Shown here piece by piece: positions 37,072-45,595 of a DNA stretch of 64,000 nt. Source of the stretch: Actinomycetes bacterium (GTDB lineage: Bacteria > Actinomycetota > Acidimicrobiia > Acidimicrobiales > RAAP-2); assembly GCA_021778895.1 (NCBI GenBank), contig JAJYBR010000007.1, forward strand, positions 1 to 64,000, in the 5' to 3' direction. Numbering within the stretch: position 1 is the first letter of the stretch; the number at the start of each line of letters is the position of its first letter. A program made the position numbers and the translations under genes. The notes under the pieces are model-generated. The model searched no databases. It was not told the DNA's origin and saw nothing but the letters and a program-made list of their open reading frames with translations.

Positions 37072-37983
37072 TCAGCGCCCGACCGACTTGGGTGCCGGCA
37101 CGATGTCGGTGGCCAGGCGCGCCGACCGCTGGCGCCAGTGGTCGAGAACGTCGCCCACCGAGCCCTCGGTCTCGATCACCCGGCGCACCAGCGCGGCGAG
37201 TGTCGGCAGCGCCCAGAAGTCGCCGCACACCCACAGGATCGCCGCCCCGATCTGCTGGTCGGCGAAGGCCGGTAGGGTCACGCCGGCGATGTGGTCGTAG
37301 CTCGGGTACCACGACGTCGTGGTGAGGATGCTCATCGAGATGGCCAGCACCGTCATGATGGCGTTGGTCGCCAGGATGGCGCCGATCTGGAATGCCGGTC
37401 CGCGGCGGGGCCGCAGGGGGTGCGACGGGAAGATCTGCAGCCAGAAGAGCGTGCCCGTCACGAGGAAGCTGCCGTGCATGAGCCACACGTGGACCAGCGC
37501 GTTGCGCTCCGAGAGCTCGAAGAGGGCCGGCACGTGCCAGGCCAGCATCGCGACGTTGAACGAGATCACCGCGGTCCAGGGATGGCGGAGGAACCGCCCC
37601 ACCGAGCGCAGCCACCCCCATCGCGGCGCGTGGAGCAGCGAGCGCAGGACCGAGCGGCGCGCCGGGGCGGGCAGCGCGAACAGCAGCGGGATCCAGGGAG
37701 CCCCGCGGACGATCAGGATGGGGACGAAGAAGGCGGCCACCACGTGGTCGATCATGTGCACGAAGAAGTAGCTGCTGGCCCAGTAGTCCAGGGGTGAGAC
37801 GATGCTGACGAGCAAGACGACGAGTCCGGCGTAGAAGCTCCACGAACGTCGGCGGCGCTGGCGCGCGTGCGCGGCCGTGGCGCGCTGGCGCAGCCGCGCG
37901 AGCCCGAGCTCGTGGGCCGCAACCACCAGCGCGGTGACGAAGACGACCGGGTCGAGGCTCCAGTGAGCCGTCAGGTAGGACAT
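37072..37983 (-). CDS. ctaG: CtaG-type cytochrome c oxidase assembly protein 1
   Basis: A 303-residue polytopic membrane protein of the caa3_CtaG family, thought to help metallate or assemble the oxidase. About seven helices are visible, with [20 protein letters not shown] and the C-terminal [13 protein letters not shown] signature. It is cotranscribed with the small membrane protein upstream (GGGGG ribosome site). A second, more divergent CtaG is encoded at 39904-40647. Confidence 0.88.
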
Positions 37984-38001: not shown

Positions 38002-38355
38002 TCAGCGGGCCGTGTCATGGTCCTCGTCGTTGCCCGCGGCACCCGGCGCGCTACGGGCCTGGTGGTCGAGCCAGGCCTGCCGCATGGCGTCGTATTCGGG
38101 CGCCAGCCCCGGCTCGCGGCGCGCTCGATGCGGGTGAGGCTCGCCGTGCTGGACGCGCCACCAGATGTAGACGGCGAAGACCGCCAGCAGCGGCCACTCG
38201 AACACGTAGGCCCAGCTCAGGGCGTTGCCGTGCTCCGCGCGCCCCAGTTCGAACCAGAAGGCTGCGCCGCACAGTGCGAGGCCCGCGACCAGGAGCGCGT
38301 GGGTCCGCCACGTCGCGCGCGGACCCTCGGCGGGGTTCACGGGTCCCGCCCCCAC
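38002..38355 (-). CDS. Two-helix membrane protein of the oxidase locus (paralogue A)
   Basis: A 117-residue protein with two membrane helices. The second is preceded by the block GNALSWAYVFEWPLLAVFAVYIWW. The protein at 45209-45595 has the same block, so the two are paralogues at opposite ends of the oxidase island. GTG 38340 (five codons in) is an alternative start. It heads a two-gene unit with ctaG and is divergent from the SCO gene. Function unknown; an oxidase assembly or accessory role is inferred from context. Confidence 0.75.
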   Translation of the reverse strand: MGAGPVNPAEGPRATWRTHALLVAGLALCGAAFWFELGRAEHGNALSWAYVFEWPLLAVFAVYIWWRVQHGEPHPHRARREPGLAPEYDAMRQAWLDHQARSAPGAAGNDEDHDTAR

Positions 38356-38381
38356 GACCGTCCGTCGGCGACCACGCTGCG

Positions 38382-38387
38382 ACTGTA
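38382..38387 (-). promoter_or_regulatory. -10 element for the small membrane protein-ctaG unit
   Basis: TACAGT on the minus strand. The expected start near 38375 gives a leader of about 20-35 nt. Confidence 0.4.
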
Positions 38388-38430
38388 CCGGGCCGCCGAG
38401 GACGGAAACCTGCGAAGGCGCTCAGCCGAC

Positions 38431-38436
38431 TACCGT
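38431..38436 (+). promoter_or_regulatory. -10 element for the SCO gene
   Basis: TACCGT, 11 nt before ATG 38448. The leader would be about 5 nt. Confidence 0.4.
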
Positions 38437-38447
38437 CCCTGAGAAGA

Positions 38448-39230
38448 ATGTCAACTCCGCCCACCCCGTCGGATCCCGACCACGCCGAATTTCGCGCCGC
38501 GGCCCTCCGGGCCGGGCGCACGCCCGTGCCCCGGCGATTCATCCTCCTGGTGGCAGCGGCGTTCGTCGTGCTCGGTGGTGGTGGCGTGCTCCTCGAGCGG
38601 GCCCTGGGCTCGACGGGGTCGCCCGCGCCCGTCACCACCGCGACGACGACCCACGAGCTCACTCCCCCGTCATCGGCCGCGATCTTGGGCGCACGAGCGC
38701 TCTCGGGGGCACCAGCGCCCGCGATCCCGCTGCTCGACCAGTCGGGTCACCGGTGGTCCTGGCGCGAGCACCGCGGCCGCACCACCCTGGTCTCCTTCGT
38801 CAACGCGTCGTGCGACGACATCTGCCCCGTGCTCGGGGCCGAGCTGCGCCAGCTGCGCGCCGACATGGGTTCGCGTGCCCCCAACATCGTGATCGTGAAC
38901 ACCGATCCCCGCGCGACGGCCGTCGCGCCGCGCCCGGCCGCCCTCGTCGTGCCCCATCTGACGACGGGACGCGTGTGGTTCCTGACCGGCTCCTTGCGCG
39001 CCCTCACGACGGTCTGGACCGACTACGGCGTCCAAGTGCGCACGACTGGTGCTGGGGAGGCGCCGGTCCACAACGACGTCGTCTATCTCATCGACGCTCG
39101 CGGTCGCCTCCGGGAGGCCGTCACGCCCTTCGCCAACGAGACCCGCGCCGGCCACTTCTGGCTGGACGCGGCCACCGAGCGGTCCTTCGCGACGGCCCTG
39201 GCCGCGCTCGCCGGTAGGGTGAACGCGTGA
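38448..39230 (+). CDS. SCO1/SenC-family copper chaperone
   Basis: A 260-residue membrane-anchored thioredoxin-fold protein that delivers copper to the CuA site. One N-terminal helix (about 32-52) is followed by SFVNASCDDICPVLGAEL, giving the CxxxCP copper site, and the ligand histidine in VHNDVVYLID. The true start is ATG 38448; the ORF extension lies in the divergent gene. It overlaps the next gene (GTGA). Confidence 0.9.
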   Translation: MSTPPTPSDPDHAEFRAAALRAGRTPVPRRFILLVAAAFVVLGGGGVLLERALGSTGSPAPVTTATTTHELTPPSSAAILGARALSGAPAPAIPLLDQSGHRWSWREHRGRTTLVSFVNASCDDICPVLGAELRQLRADMGSRAPNIVIVNTDPRATAVAPRPAALVVPHLTTGRVWFLTGSLRALTTVWTDYGVQVRTTGAGEAPVHNDVVYLIDARGRLREAVTPFANETRAGHFWLDAATERSFATALAALAGRVNA

Positions 39231-39907
39231 CGGGCCCGGGCAGTGAGGAGCGCGCCAGCGCCTACGACCCCGGCTCGATGCCCGCATCGTCGCTCGTCTT
39301 GCGCAAGGCGGTCTGGTACCGGCGCCCGTGGTTCCTGATCATGCTCACCGTCGTGGTGCTGGCCGCGGTCTCCATCGCGGCCGACCTCCCCCATCACCTG
39401 ACCACCGCCCAGGATGCCGCCGACCAGAACGCCACGATCGCCCTGATCAACACGGACATCGCGGCGTGCAGCTACGCCCTCACCGAGAGCTACGGCTTCT
39501 ACAACGACTGGCGCCACGGATCCCTCACGTCGGCCCAGTCCCAGCAGGTTCCCCCGCTGCTCGCTCAGGACCAGACGTCGTGCACCCTGGCCAGCGGACC
39601 GCTCTACGACCTGGCCAACAACATCCAGCCCGTGGACACCGCGGCCGGACGCAAGATCGACAGCGCCTACCAAGAGGTGATCCGCTGGGCGACCAACGAT
39701 GCCAAGGATGCCGTGACCGACATCATCGCGGTCATCACCCGGCCCGCGGCGCGCGCGTCCGCCCAGCGTGACCTACTGCGGCGTGACGCCTATCTGCGCG
39801 CCGACCGCCTCACGGTCCAGCGGCTCGTCGGGGAGGCCGAGGCCATCTTGCACCAGCACTTGACCCCCGTACGCCTGCCCCGGCTGCCGTCGCTTGCCGC
39901 GACCTAG
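39227..39907 (+). CDS. Single-helix membrane protein, unknown
   Basis: A 226-residue protein not recognised. One membrane helix (about 35-55, WFLIMLTVVVLAAVSIAADL) is followed by a ~165-residue, largely helical domain probably outside the membrane. Two cysteines (ACSYALTES; SCTLASGP) could pair. Start GTG 39227 overlaps the SCO stop, so it is coupled to a copper chaperone inside the oxidase island. Its end overlaps convergent ctaG 2 by 4 nt. Confidence 0.75.
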   Translation: MTGPGSEERASAYDPGSMPASSLVLRKAVWYRRPWFLIMLTVVVLAAVSIAADLPHHLTTAQDAADQNATIALINTDIAACSYALTESYGFYNDWRHGSLTSAQSQQVPPLLAQDQTSCTLASGPLYDLANNIQPVDTAAGRKIDSAYQEVIRWATNDAKDAVTDIIAVITRPAARASAQRDLLRRDAYLRADRLTVQRLVGEAEAILHQHLTPVRLPRLPSLAAT

Positions 39908-40647
39908 TCGCCTCGACCGAAGAACCCGCGGTCCTTCTCCTGGCGCACCAGCCGGTACAGCTCGTCGTCGGGATCCTCCTCGCTCTGGAGCCAGCGCACC
40001 AGGTTCGCGAAGATGATCGGCAGGAACACGCCCGCCGTCACCACCCACACCGAGCCGGCGGCCAGCTGCTGGTCCGCCACCCGCGAGAGCGTCGTGGTGC
40101 CGCGAAAGACGCTGTACCAGGAGTGCGACGCCATCCCGTCGAGGTAGGCCATGATCCAGACCACCCACATCACCACCGCGGACATCCCGATGCGGTAGGG
40201 CCGCGACGTGCCCGGCCGCAACGGCGGCGAGACGACCAAGTCGGCGAACAGCGCCGTCGCGACAACGGTCAGCGTGAGAGCCTCCACGACCATCAGCACG
40301 GGATCGCGCACGAGGGTGTCCACGACGGGTGCGGTCCGCCACACGACCGCCAGGACGACGAGCGAGAACGCCTCGAGCAGGGACCGCCGCTGACCGGCGA
40401 CCCCCGCGGGTCGCACGCGGCCCCAGACGTGCACCTCGCCACTGGGCAGGACGCGCGCCCAGCCGAGCACGCGCCACGGCGCGCCGAGCGCGATCAGCGC
40501 CGGCGCGACGAAGGCGAACGTCAGGTACTGCGCCGTCTCGACGACCTCATAGCGCCGGGCGAGCGGCGCGAGCGGGGGCACGAGCACCGCCAGCCACGTG
40601 GCCAGTCCCAGCGCAGCGAGCCAGCCACGTGCGCGCCGCACCGCCAT
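39904..40647 (-). CDS. CtaG-type cytochrome c oxidase assembly protein 2
   Basis: A 247-residue membrane protein with about six helices. The C-terminal signature VADQQLAAGSVWVVTAGVFLP matches the CtaG family, but the rest is divergent from the copy at 37072. It is the last gene of the cupredoxin-coxBAC operon. The two CtaG copies may serve different copper steps or one may be specialised (inference). Confidence 0.82.
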   Translation of the reverse strand: MAVRRARGWLAALGLATWLAVLVPPLAPLARRYEVVETAQYLTFAFVAPALIALGAPWRVLGWARVLPSGEVHVWGRVRPAGVAGQRRSLLEAFSLVVLAVVWRTAPVVDTLVRDPVLMVVEALTLTVVATALFADLVVSPPLRPGTSRPYRIGMSAVVMWVVWIMAYLDGMASHSWYSVFRGTTTLSRVADQQLAAGSVWVVTAGVFLPIIFANLVRWLQSEEDPDDELYRLVRQEKDRGFFGRGD

Positions 40648-40783: not shown

Positions 40784-41431
40784 CTAGATCTGATAGAACA
40801 TCGCGAACAGGAACGCCCCGCTCAGCGCCACGAAGCCCACGAAGTACGTCATGGCCGAGACGTTCGCCCGCCACGACTGCGCGTCGACGTCGGTCGACAG
40901 CAAGGCGTTGCCCCCCCGCTCGTGGGCCAGGCGGTGCGACCGGGTCAGCGTCGTCTCGAGCCAGAACGTCGTGATCACGAGCGTCATGATGTTGAAGACG
41001 CTGAAGCCGATGAACGTCGAGGCGTACCCGCTGGAGCCCGGGTAGAACGGCAGCGACGACAGCTCCCAGATCTGCAGGATCAACGCGATGGCGGCAGTGG
41101 TGAACGCCGTCCAGCCCGCGACCTGCCAGTCCACCAGTGCCCCACCGCGCAGGCGTCGCCGGCCGGTCACGGCCATGATGCCCGTCGCGACCGTGGCCAG
41201 GAAGATCGCCCACCCGTAGTGCGTGGGCGCAGTGACGTGGTCCGGCCGCCACAACAGCCCGTTGTTGGCCGAGCGCAGGTAGAAGTAGGCGAACACCAGG
41301 GACGCCAGCAGGAACGTGTACATGCCGATGAAGAGCCGGCCGCCGGACCAGATCGAGCCGATGTGGGCACGCAACTCGAACTCAGCCTCCTCGGGAGTCG
41401 ACGTGTAGCTCTGGTCTTCGATCGTCTTCAT
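40784..41431 (-). CDS. ctaE: Cytochrome c oxidase subunit III
   Basis: A 215-residue, five-helix subunit III of the CoxC/CyoC type (FIGMYTFLLASLVFAYFYLR, HYGWAIFLAT, FVGFVALSGAFLFAMFYQI). It stabilises the catalytic core. It follows subunit I by 10 nt. Confidence 0.93.
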   Translation of the reverse strand: MKTIEDQSYTSTPEEAEFELRAHIGSIWSGGRLFIGMYTFLLASLVFAYFYLRSANNGLLWRPDHVTAPTHYGWAIFLATVATGIMAVTGRRRLRGGALVDWQVAGWTAFTTAAIALILQIWELSSLPFYPGSSGYASTFIGFSVFNIMTLVITTFWLETTLTRSHRLAHERGGNALLSTDVDAQSWRANVSAMTYFVGFVALSGAFLFAMFYQI

Positions 41432-41441
41432 TCTGTGCTCC

Positions 41442-43391
41442 TCACACCGGCACTCCGCTGAGGGAGGGCTCGTCGGGGGGACTCGTGGGTCCCAGGTCGG
41501 CTACGGCGGGCGCGTTCTCCTCGCTGTAGTGGTACGGGTCGGCCAGGACCACGGGGATCCGGTCGAAGTTGTGGGCCGGGACCGGGGTGGCCGTCTGCCA
41601 CTCGAGGCCCAGGGAGTCCCAGGGGTTGGCCGGTGCCTTGACCGGGTTGATGTAAAGCGACCACACCAGGTTGAAGAAGAAGATCAGGAACGAGAAGCCC
41701 AGGATGAAGGCGCTGATCGACGAGAAGTCGTTCAGGCCCTGCAGGTTCTTCGCGTACGTGAAGACCCGTCGCGGCTGGCCCAGCAGGCCGATGATGAACA
41801 TCGGGAAGAAGGTCAGGTTGAAGAAGATGAACATCGTCCAGAAGTGCCACATCCCGATGCGACGATTCATCATGCGACCCGTCATCTTGGGCAGCCAGTA
41901 GTAGAGGCCCGCCATGAAGGCGAACAGCAGACCGCCCATGATCGTGTAGTGGAAGTGCGCGAGCACGAAGAACCCGCCGTGGACCGTCACGTTCACCGGG
42001 ACGTCGGATAGGAAGACCCCGGTGACCCCCCCGATCAGGAAGTTGAAGTACAGCGCCATGACGAACAGCATCGGTAGGTCGAAGCGGATCTTGGCCCGAT
42101 ACAGCGTTCCCATCCCGACGAGGTAGATGAAGCCCGTGGGGATCGAGATCAGCTCGGTCGTCAGCATGAACAGTGGCCGCATGTCCGGGTTGATGCCGCT
42201 CTGGAAGAGGTGGTGCTGCCACACGAAGAACGACAGCAGGGACACGCCGATCATCCCGGCCGCGCCCACCTTGTAGGCGAAGAGCGGCTTTCGGGTGAAC
42301 ACCGGCAGGATCTCCCCGGCGATGCCGAATCCGGGCAGCGCCATGATGTACACCTCGGGATGCCCGAAGAACCAGAAGAGGTTCTCCCACAGGTACGAAC
42401 TCCCCCCGTGTTCGGTCACGTAGAACGCCGTCTGCACCGTCCGGTCGAGCAGCCCGAAGACCCCGGCGGCGAACAGCGTCGGCGTGGCCAGGGTCAGTAG
42501 GGCGGCCGTGGCCAGGATGGACCACACGAAGATCGGGACGCGGCTCCACGTCATGCCCGGAGCCCGGTAGTTGATGATCGTGACCGCGATGTTGAAGCCG
42601 GCCGCCATCATCCCGAGGCCGATCACCGCGAACCCGAACAGGTAGGACACCATCCCGGGACCCGACTGCGTCTGCAGGGGCGCGTAGCCGGTCCAGCCCG
42701 TGGGGAAGCCGCCGAAGGGCAGGGCCGAGAAGATGACCATGTAGCCCGCGACGAAGATCCAGAAGCTGAAGGCCTCGATGCGGGGGAAGGCCATCCGGCG
42801 TGAGCCGATCATCAGGGGCACCAGATAGTTGCCCAGCGGCCCCACGACGATGGACGTGGCCATCATCATCATCACCGTGCCGTGCTCACTGACGATCTTG
42901 ATGTACGTGTCGGGGCTGAAGACGTGCGTCGTCGGGCTCAGCAGCTCGGTCCGGATCGCCATGGCCAGCAGGCCGCCGGTGAACATGAATAGCAAGACCC
43001 CCACGACGTACTGCAGACCCACGGTCTTGTGGTTCGTGCTGTAGCGGAAGTACTTGCTCCAGCCCTGGATCTCCACCTCACTGTTCGGCTGGCGACCCGT
43101 CAGCTTGGCCAGGGGGTAGTTCAAGGCGCCGATGCCGAGCAGCCAGCCCAGCACGCCGAACATCAGGCCCAGGGTGTCGGCGATGGCGTTCTGCCCGCTG
43201 TTGGCGATGTAGGGGTAGTGGCCCGAGATGGTGTTGCCCAGCCAATGGCCGATCGCGTAGCCGACGATGGCGGCGAGGATCGCGGTCCCCACATGCTGGC
43301 TGAGCAGGCCGGGCCGCTGGGTCAGCGGGGGCCGCTCGGTGCTCGACGCGGCCAGCGCGACGTCGTGCGGACGCTCGTGGACTGTGCTCAT
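41442..43391 (-). CDS. ctaD: Cytochrome c oxidase subunit I (atypical proton-channel residues)
   Basis: A 649-residue haem-copper oxidase subunit I. Haem and CuB ligands are intact: SEHGTVMMMM, FFGHPEVYI (with the Glu and cross-linked Tyr), WQHHLF and AHFHYTIMGG. Compared with aa3 oxidases, the D-channel Asp (PDMAFPR) is Arg (SRRMAFPR), the K-channel Lys (PTGIKVF) is absent (PTGFIYL), and the Mg-site HD is HG. About 110 N-terminal residues add two extra helices before the usual first helix. Start ATG overlaps the 20-codon ORF that follows coxB. Confidence 0.95.
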   Translation of the reverse strand: MSTVHERPHDVALAASSTERPPLTQRPGLLSQHVGTAILAAIVGYAIGHWLGNTISGHYPYIANSGQNAIADTLGLMFGVLGWLLGIGALNYPLAKLTGRQPNSEVEIQGWSKYFRYSTNHKTVGLQYVVGVLLFMFTGGLLAMAIRTELLSPTTHVFSPDTYIKIVSEHGTVMMMMATSIVVGPLGNYLVPLMIGSRRMAFPRIEAFSFWIFVAGYMVIFSALPFGGFPTGWTGYAPLQTQSGPGMVSYLFGFAVIGLGMMAAGFNIAVTIINYRAPGMTWSRVPIFVWSILATAALLTLATPTLFAAGVFGLLDRTVQTAFYVTEHGGSSYLWENLFWFFGHPEVYIMALPGFGIAGEILPVFTRKPLFAYKVGAAGMIGVSLLSFFVWQHHLFQSGINPDMRPLFMLTTELISIPTGFIYLVGMGTLYRAKIRFDLPMLFVMALYFNFLIGGVTGVFLSDVPVNVTVHGGFFVLAHFHYTIMGGLLFAFMAGLYYWLPKMTGRMMNRRIGMWHFWTMFIFFNLTFFPMFIIGLLGQPRRVFTYAKNLQGLNDFSSISAFILGFSFLIFFFNLVWSLYINPVKAPANPWDSLGLEWQTATPVPAHNFDRIPVVLADPYHYSEENAPAVADLGPTSPPDEPSLSGVPV

Positions 43392-43450
43392 CGCCCCAAC
43401 TCCCTCTCCGAGGTGCTCATCGGACTCCCCTTCCGCGTGCCCACGCTCAT
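43388..43450 (-). CDS. 20-codon ORF bridging coxB and coxA
   Basis: The minus strand encodes MSVGTRKGSPMSTSERELGR. Its ATG overlaps the coxB stop (ATGA) and its stop overlaps the coxA start (ATGA). It may only couple translation of the two subunits rather than make a functional peptide. Too short to judge by homology. Confidence 0.35.
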   Translation of the reverse strand: MSVGTRKGSPMSTSERELGR

Positions 43451-44436
43451 GACGCCGGCTGCTTGGCGCCGTAGATCTCGGCCGGACTGTACGGCGTCAC
43501 CTTGCCGTCGGGGTAGTACCCGCCGGCGGCCCCATTGGCGTCGGGCGTGTAGGTCCAGGCAAACGCCGGCAGCAGCTTGGTGTTGGCGGCGTTGGCGGCC
43601 TGAGCCTGCTGGGCCCAGGTCATGAACGACTGCTGGGACACGACGCGCCCGTAGTTGTACATCGCGCCGTGCCAGATCCCGCACAGCTCGCTGCAGCGCA
43701 CCACGAACTGTCCCTGCTGGGTGGTCGCCGCGTAGGCCACGTCATTGATCAGCGGGTTGGCGTCGGCCTTCACCCCGAGTTGGTAGGCCCAGAAACTGTG
43801 CGTCACGTCGAGCGACGTCACGTTGAAGACGATCGACGTGTTGGTGGGCAGCACGAGCTGCGGCGACTCGAACCCGCCGAAGGTCGGGTAGCGGTACGTG
43901 AACTTCCACTGCTGGGCGATGACCTGGACGGGGAGGACCTGGCCACTGTTGGGTGACCAGGTCGCTGTCCCCGCCAAGGCCGCGGCTTCGGCCTTCGTCG
44001 CACCCGCAGGAGACCAGACCGGGTTGGGCCCCTCTCCTCCGCCCGATCCGTGATTCACCACGAGCTCGACGGTTCCGAAGCCGGCCAAGAACAGGACCAC
44101 CACGGACGTGATGGTGATCCACGCCACCTGCGCAGTGCGATTCGTCCGAGCGGCCTCTCCTCCGACAGGCTCGGGCCCGCCGCGCTTGGCGCTCCAGACG
44201 ACGATCGTGTACCCCAGGTAGATCCACACCCCGATGAGCACCGGCAGGGCGATCACGAAGAGGATGTTGAAGTCGAACTGGTTCGAGGTGGCCATGTCCG
44301 TCATGCGCCCCGGGGGCACGTGCGGGCCCACGAAGAACCAGAACAGCACGTCGGCCACCACGGACACGATCACCCAGGCGATCGTCATCCGACGCAGGTG
44401 GTGAGTCTCATTCATTGTCGTACGCTCCGTTGCCAT
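43447..44436 (-). CDS. ctaC: Cytochrome c oxidase subunit II
   Basis: A 329-residue CuA-bearing subunit. The CuA ligands are all present: TSLDVTHSFW and CSELCGIWHGAM. Helices lie at about 17-36, 57-80 and 102-125. ATG 44415 (MNETHH, with GGAG nine nt upstream) is an equally likely start. No fused cytochrome c domain is seen, so an external donor is needed; the neighbouring cupredoxin is a candidate. Confidence 0.94.
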   Translation of the reverse strand: MATERTTMNETHHLRRMTIAWVIVSVVADVLFWFFVGPHVPPGRMTDMATSNQFDFNILFVIALPVLIGVWIYLGYTIVVWSAKRGGPEPVGGEAARTNRTAQVAWITITSVVVLFLAGFGTVELVVNHGSGGGEGPNPVWSPAGATKAEAAALAGTATWSPNSGQVLPVQVIAQQWKFTYRYPTFGGFESPQLVLPTNTSIVFNVTSLDVTHSFWAYQLGVKADANPLINDVAYAATTQQGQFVVRCSELCGIWHGAMYNYGRVVSQQSFMTWAQQAQAANAANTKLLPAFAWTYTPDANGAAGGYYPDGKVTPYSPAEIYGAKQPAS

Positions 44437-44439
44437 CGC

Positions 44440-45123
44440 TTACCGGACCACGTCCAAGAAACCGCCCATGTAGTTCTGCGTCGACATGGGGCCGCCGTTG
44501 CCGAACAGGTACCCCAGGCCACACGGGACGAAGCACTGCCAGTGGTAGTTGCCCGGTCCCGGTGTCTTAAAGCTGAAGGTGATCGTGTTGTGCGTCTGGC
44601 TGGGCGAGCAGGGCGCCGAGCCGCACACCTGGGCGGTCGGGCTCACACCGACCAGGGGGACGCTGATGTTGAGCCCGGGCACCGAGAAGGTGTGCCCCAC
44701 GCCATTGCCGGCGTTCGAGTTGTAGAGGCTGTAGGCCGACCCGTTCAGCGAGGCCGTGGAGCCGATCGTCCCTTGGACCTGGCCCCACTCCTGGTTGCGC
44801 AGCGGGCTGCCCGAGTCGTACTGCAGCACGGTCATGTGGATCAGGCTGTGCGCGGGAAGCTCCCACGTCGTGTCCTGGATCCACGTGCCGGTGTGGGGGT
44901 TCTTGACGAGGTACGAGACCCAGGTGGGGTGCGCTCCGTACCCGATCGAGCCCACGGTCTGCACCGTGAGGTTCACGGGCTGGCCGGTCGCTTGGGTATC
45001 GGTGAAGTTCACGACCCCGCCGGGTGTTCCTGGAGTGAGGAAGGCCGCCAAGCTCCAGATGATCAGGCCGACCGCCAGCAAGAACAGCACCGCGACGGTG
45101 GCGAACCTCCCTTGAATCGACAT
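44440..45123 (-). CDS. Membrane-anchored cupredoxin with CuA-like loop
   Basis: A 227-residue protein: one N-terminal helix (about 8-30), then a beta-rich exported domain. Probable metal ligands are His in VGHTFSVPG and the loop CFVPCGLGYLFGNGGPM. The CxxxC spacing copies CuA, but the expected His is Tyr and the Met is displaced. Two further cysteines (VCGSAPC) could form a disulfide. The start MSIQGRF (ATG 45123, AAGGAGA upstream) is used. As first gene of the oxidase operon it is likely an electron donor or copper carrier (inference). Confidence 0.8.
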   Translation of the reverse strand: MSIQGRFATVAVLFLLAVGLIIWSLAAFLTPGTPGGVVNFTDTQATGQPVNLTVQTVGSIGYGAHPTWVSYLVKNPHTGTWIQDTTWELPAHSLIHMTVLQYDSGSPLRNQEWGQVQGTIGSTASLNGSAYSLYNSNAGNGVGHTFSVPGLNISVPLVGVSPTAQVCGSAPCSPSQTHNTITFSFKTPGPGNYHWQCFVPCGLGYLFGNGGPMSTQNYMGGFLDVVR

Positions 45124-45174
45124 CGCGCTCTCCTTCGCTTCCCGGCGCTGGGCCCCAGGACTGCTTCGCGGTCG

Positions 45175-45208: not shown

Positions 45209-45595
45209 GTGTCTGAGAAGGCTAAGAATGCTCCCTCGCGGCACCAGTTGCACCTGCTCGTGTCCCTGGCGCAGCTCATCTGCTGGTCCGCGTTCGCGAT
45301 CGAGCTCCACCGTGCAATTCAGGGAAATTCCCTGTCGTGGGCCTACGTCTTCGAGTGGCCCGTCCTGGCGGGATACGCGATCTATATGTGGAAGAAACTT
45401 CTCAGTGAGGGCACCGCACATCCCGCCTCCGACGTGGCACCGGCCAACCCGTCCGACGAGATCGCGCGTCAGCGCTACAACGCCTACTTGCGCCGCGTGC
45501 ACGGCGCTGCGGCCGAGGCCGGCGCTCAGTCCGCGGCAGCGAGGCAGCCCACGAGGACGCCGTTGACGAACGAGGGCGACGAGTCGGTCGAGTAG
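45209..45595 (+). CDS. Two-helix membrane protein of the oxidase locus (paralogue B)
   Basis: A 128-residue protein with two helices (LLVSLAQLICWSAFAIELH and YVFEWPVLAGYAIYMWKKL) joined by GNSLSWAY. It shares this block with the protein at 38002-38355. The C-terminal ~60 residues are polar and probably cytoplasmic. It is divergent from the cupredoxin-oxidase operon. Its last 70 bp overlap convergent nusB, so the C-terminal residues are constrained by two frames. Confidence 0.78.
   Translation: MSEKAKNAPSRHQLHLLVSLAQLICWSAFAIELHRAIQGNSLSWAYVFEWPVLAGYAIYMWKKLLSEGTAHPASDVAPANPSDEIARQRYNAYLRRVHGAAAEAGAQSAAARQPTRTPLTNEGDESVE

Follow-up and report, generated by a model that had tools for sequence, protein, structure and literature searches.

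A predicted membrane-anchored cupredoxin with a conserved His/two-Cys/two-Met set, encoded before oxidase subunit II in Acidimicrobiia, as candidate redox partner of the oxidase

The gene directly before subunit II of a heme-copper oxidase in an Actinomycetes bacterium of the Acidimicrobiales (assembly GCA_021778895.1) encodes a cupredoxin, P0002, whose relatives share one histidine, two cysteines and two methionines across otherwise very divergent sequences. We consider it probable, with a likelihood of roughly 0.6, that P0002 is a membrane-anchored copper-binding redox partner of this oxidase, i.e., that it plays a role like that of AcoP with another ligand set. As we envisage it, an N-terminal helix would anchor the cupredoxin at the outer face of the cytoplasmic membrane, the protein would be made together with subunit II, copper would be held by His144, Cys197, Cys201 and Met213 and/or Met219, and electrons would pass to the CuA center of subunit II or their entry there would be supported, in line with what has been proposed for AcoP and the oxidase of Acidithiobacillus ferrooxidans. 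Copper binding, the exact ligand set, the nuclearity of the site and the direction of electron flow are what we infer from conservation, predicted fold and gene neighborhood. The one-His/two-Cys/two-Met set matches no characterized electron carrier among those that we compared.

A cupredoxin gene at the head of an oxidase operon

The analyzed stretch of DNA (the window) comprises positions 1 to 64,000 of contig JAJYBR010000007.1. P0002 (227 amino acids) is encoded on its reverse strand at 44440-45123, including the TAA stop codon, as delimited by the open reading frame with its translation, orthologs and dN/dS, and the ATG is preceded at a distance of 6 nt by a ribosome-binding site, AAGGAG (45130-45135, reverse strand). 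Seven orthologs with 76-93% amino acid identity differ from P0002 mostly at third codon positions, with dN of 0.03-0.18, dS of 0.30-1.27 and dN/dS of about 0.1-0.2. Since dN is well below dS in all seven, P0002 is a gene under purifying selection and not a chance reading frame. Residues 3-29 (45037-45117, reverse strand) are predicted to form an N-terminal membrane helix, based on the AlphaFold2 model and their hydrophobic sequence.

Downstream of P0002, the stop codon is followed by GCG and then by the start codon of coxB, which leaves a gap of only three bases. All genes of the run that follows lie on the reverse strand: coxB for subunit II (43447-44436; PF00116) with a complete CuA motif, CSELCGIWHGAM, coxA for subunit I (41442-43391; PF00115), a probable coxC for subunit III (40784-41431) that is assigned by position and appearance only and matches no family, and a gene for a CtaG-type oxidase assembly protein (39904-40647; PF09678). 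The cupredoxin thus adjoins subunit II and heads a coxB-coxA-coxC-ctaG run, just as the original prediction had stated. The neighborhood also encodes a SCO1/SenC copper-assembly protein (38274-39230, forward strand; PF02630) and a second CtaG-type assembly protein (37072-37983, reverse strand; PF09678).

The gene order of this cluster is kept in 20-odd loci from records named as Acidimicrobiaceae or Actinomycetes MAGs, and the isolate names of many of these loci contain "bog" or "palsa"; our guess from isolate names is that some other host records come from mine drainage. There is also a divergent version of the operon, in which CoxB and CoxA are 27-32% and 39-42% identical to those of the window, respectively, and a divergent cupredoxin is encoded at the same place. 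Two similar small membrane proteins (45209-45595, forward strand, and 38002-38355, reverse strand) flank the oxidase cluster; they share an SWAYVFEWP stretch, are conserved in related loci and have no Pfam match. A protein of 226 amino acids from an unknown family is encoded between SCO and CtaG (39227-39907, forward strand) and found at the same place in most related loci.

Predicted fold and conserved residues

P0002 matches no Pfam or NCBIfam model, and as a single-sequence query against the PDB it yielded chance matches only. The cupredoxin fold that had been proposed for it is borne out by AlphaFold2 and Foldseek, for which cupredoxins were the top matches with E-values down to 1.8e-5 and modest TM-scores (0.3-0.4 by query). 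Of two models (pLDDT 67-68, pTM 0.65-0.72), the second comprising the domain only, both retrieved CuA subunits (2qpe, 1ehk and 2yev for the first model) and rusticyanin (1a3z, 1rcy and 2cal) with E-values of 1e-3 or better, and the first also retrieved AcoP; the recovery of these three kinds of proteins supports the fold. The putative copper loop has a pLDDT below 50 in both models, and the domain-only model is no better there.

This loop extends from Cys197 to Met219 (44467-44535, reverse strand) with the pattern C-x3-C ... M-x5-M-x-G in alignments. The portion that the original prediction had quoted, CFVPCGLGYLFGNGGPM, corresponds to residues 197-213, and the histidine of its VGHTF motif is His144 (44692-44694, reverse strand); both are present as quoted. 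Among 24 sequences from both subfamilies with identities down to 21%, the only invariant columns are G58, H144, C197, C201, M213, M219 and G221. H, C and M account for five of the seven, compared with 15 of all 227 residues (p 1.2e-5 by composition). When 26 members of the oxidase type are considered, Y102, D103, P200 and a small number of Gly, Trp and Val residues join the invariant positions. The two methionines lie six apart in 97/114 members and five apart in 2/114, while the spacing is counted as three in the other 15/114 owing to an extra Met between the two; distances of 15 to 23 separate the first Cys and the last Met across the family. Another cluster, Cys167, Cys172 and His178 (44590-44625, reverse strand), was rejected as a universal core site, being conserved in one branch only; neither the WNCE(F/Y)PCGG branch nor the paralogs have it. 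Probably, it represents either a local disulfide or an addition particular to that lineage, though it may be a second metal site in that one branch.

That the loop keeps the CxxxC spacing of CuA had been noted before, and a CuA-like register of the histidine and the Cys pair was seen when the family was aligned by hhalign with CoxB of the same operons (probability 85, E 6e-6): D103 (44815-44817, reverse strand), H144, C197, C201 and G202 fall on the CuA Asp (SLDV), the first His, both Cys and the following Gly, respectively, whereas nothing corresponds to the second CuA His. With a narrower alignment of oxidase-type members, the match to CoxB was weaker (probability 40, E 3e-4). P0002 itself has no match to PF00116 or TIGR02866 of the COX2 family, for which weak matches were seen in paralogs only.

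Several known systems resemble P0002 in part. The CuA domain of CoxB/CtaC (PF00116) shares its fold and the register of the Asp, first His, C-x3-C and next Gly, but P0002 differs by its pair of Met at a spacing of six, by ca. 40 inserted residues before the His and by the lack of the second His; the pattern C-x3-C-x3-H was found in none of 114 members. Because this second His is missing, we did not file P0002 as CuA. In SCO/SenC proteins, CxxxC and a distant His are carried on a thioredoxin-type fold, whereas P0002 has a cupredoxin fold and no SCO match. Rusticyanin of Acidithiobacillus ferrooxidans is likewise an oxidase-linked cupredoxin from an acidophile, but it is soluble and binds copper by one Cys, two His and one Met (His85/Cys138/His143/Met148); like plastocyanin, it represents a type of blue copper site (one Cys, loop His, Met) from which the P0002 family departs by having no conserved loop His. 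AcoP, a green cupredoxin of the same acidophile (PDB 7z3b/7z3f/7z3g/7z3i), is similar as a single-domain cupredoxin with an N-terminal membrane helix, a gene in an oxidase cluster, an extended loop from Cys to Met and a long additional region, and it was retrieved by Foldseek and as a weak profile match. However, its ligands are H85, C159, H166 and M171 with a single Cys and one loop His (PMC4059628, PMC5982212), i.e., a C-x6-H-x4-M pattern, while the P0002 family has a second Cys (C-x3-C), a second Met and no conserved loop His, which is why P0002 was not filed as AcoP. A sequence link to AcoP was also sought through a paralog, for which the sole PDB match was a CtaC with an E-value of 1. PmoD/AmoD of methane and ammonia oxidizers are operon-linked, membrane-anchored cupredoxins with a non-canonical Cys/Met/His set as well and illustrate that Met can serve as a ligand in CuA-type sites, but they differ by forming CuA in a homodimer with the motif C-x7-MxH-xn-C, by a C-terminal anchor and by having a copper monooxygenase as partner (PMC6189053).

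Distribution of the family and its paralogs

Profile searches detected the family in 31/296 genomes of the class and 14/397 genomes of the phylum. Most of these belong to the order of the window, where many families are represented, and three matches fall outside the class. We collected 115 distinct members. The original prediction had pointed to co-occurrence with this type of oxidase as a check, and indeed 72 of 76 oxidase-type members (71 plus the one at locus L088) are encoded immediately upstream of a coxB whose CuA is intact; among the remaining four, two precede a coxB that is broken or cut by the locus end and two lie at contig or locus edges. One genome has a second cupredoxin-coxB pair (L049, G008:C186, 4367-5947) with the loop CFVACGVGYFL and a broken coxB frame. 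The pair is also present in G073, a single-contig genome of 2.2 Mb from the same order (L095). No plasmid-borne relatives of the cupredoxin were found.

The other 39/115 members form a second subfamily without coxB. In seven clusters of this subfamily that were checked, the cupredoxin genes are mostly in tandem and sit beside genes for a 4Fe-4S protein and/or NrfD, and no CuA protein was recognized in these loci. Arrays of paralogs occur at L037 (2842-7949), L042 (1621-6085), L035 (3736-9281), L036 (5117-8261) and L045 (2694-6655) and likewise at L040 and L044, with up to four tandem cupredoxins that each carry the His/C-x3-C/Met-x5-Met signature. These arrays may constitute an electron module of quinol, Fe-S protein and cupredoxin in related genomes; the genome of the window yielded no NrfD.

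Electron transfer to the oxidase and alternative roles

Elsewhere, this genome (about 94% complete) encodes a cytochrome b, a QcrC-like two-heme cytochrome, COX3 and a second, separate COX1. No other cytochrome c was detected by PF13442 or PF00034, models that leave further c-type families outside their reach. Given the second COX1, the QcrC-like cytochrome and no further cytochrome c, the oxidase of the window is left without an obvious cytochrome c donor. A role of the cupredoxin as substitute for a degenerate CuA in CoxB was ruled out, as CuA is complete in the intact CoxB sequences; CoxB keeps its own site, and the cupredoxin therefore adds one instead of replacing it. The distances among cupredoxins and among CoxB proteins correlate beyond species control (partial r 0.69, 20 loci), which is suggestive only as a sign of partnership.

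We favor a redox partner of the oxidase because of the constant place of the gene before coxB, because CoxB retains CuA, because the oxidase has no obvious donor, because paralogs accompany Fe-S/NrfD electron-transfer genes, and because AcoP, the anchored cupredoxin of a cox cluster, has cytochrome c and the oxidase as interaction partners (PMC4059628, PMC5982212). The earlier idea of an electron donor to the oxidase is likewise plausible, whereas nothing supports the copper store that had been named alongside it.

How the residues would be arranged around copper is a separate matter. It is conceivable, though we would not count on it, that Met213 takes the role of the second CuA His in a CuA-like dinuclear or two-Cys mononuclear site, i.e., a one-His/two-Cys/two-Met site of high potential suited to acid that would serve the partner of a CuA oxidase as well as Fe-S/NrfD modules. 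We found no description of such a site of a monomeric cupredoxin in the literature. The "displaced Met" of the original prediction is this Met213, which is present as described; yet Met219 (NYMGG) is equally invariant and is the one that leads into the last strand like the axial Met of cupredoxins.

A clearly less likely alternative to electron transfer is copper delivery or thiol-redox activity in CuA assembly, in which a soft Cu(I) site would load the CuA cysteines of CoxB, or keep them reduced, alongside SCO and CtaG. One His, two Cys and two Met make up the kind of soft ligand set that is typical of Cu(I) carriers, a SCO protein and two CtaG proteins are encoded nearby, the linkage to the CuA subunit is strict, and the gene neighborhood would look alike if the protein acted in oxidase assembly or stability. 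However, SCO is already there, and paralogs with the same invariant residues adjoin Fe-S/NrfD genes where no CuA protein was recognized; these tandem paralogs are what favors electron transfer over CuA assembly. It is more improbable still that P0002 is a metal-free structural subunit or anchor of the oxidase with a Cys197-Cys201 disulfide. The tight gene linkage would fit and extracellular CxxxC pairs are able to form disulfides, but the Cys pair is no more invariant than His144, Met213 and Met219, and this also holds for paralogs that are unlinked to an oxidase, so that a mere structural disulfide is insufficient to explain the pattern. The proposal that Tyr205 (44509-44511, reverse strand) replaces the second His as copper ligand of a CuA-derived site can practically be dismissed: a Tyr does lie where CuA has His, as had been noted, four residues after the second Cys (C-x3-C-x3-Y), and is found in 23/24 near orthologs, but only 46/114 family members have Tyr at this non-conserved position and none has His, while the same His, Cys and Met are accompanied by R, S, T, A, W, G, F, V or others in 68/114, including Trp or Ser in some members of the same genus.

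Our literature search, which reached few subscription papers, retrieved no description of this cupredoxin family. If P0002 is indeed a redox partner, it would be the electron carrier for a second oxidase whose donor is not apparent in a wide group of Acidimicrobiia-type bacteria known from bog, palsa and other MAGs. If copper is bound as predicted, a natural His/two-Cys/two-Met set would join the small list of cupredoxin sites and would bear on the interconversion of CuA and blue-copper sites.
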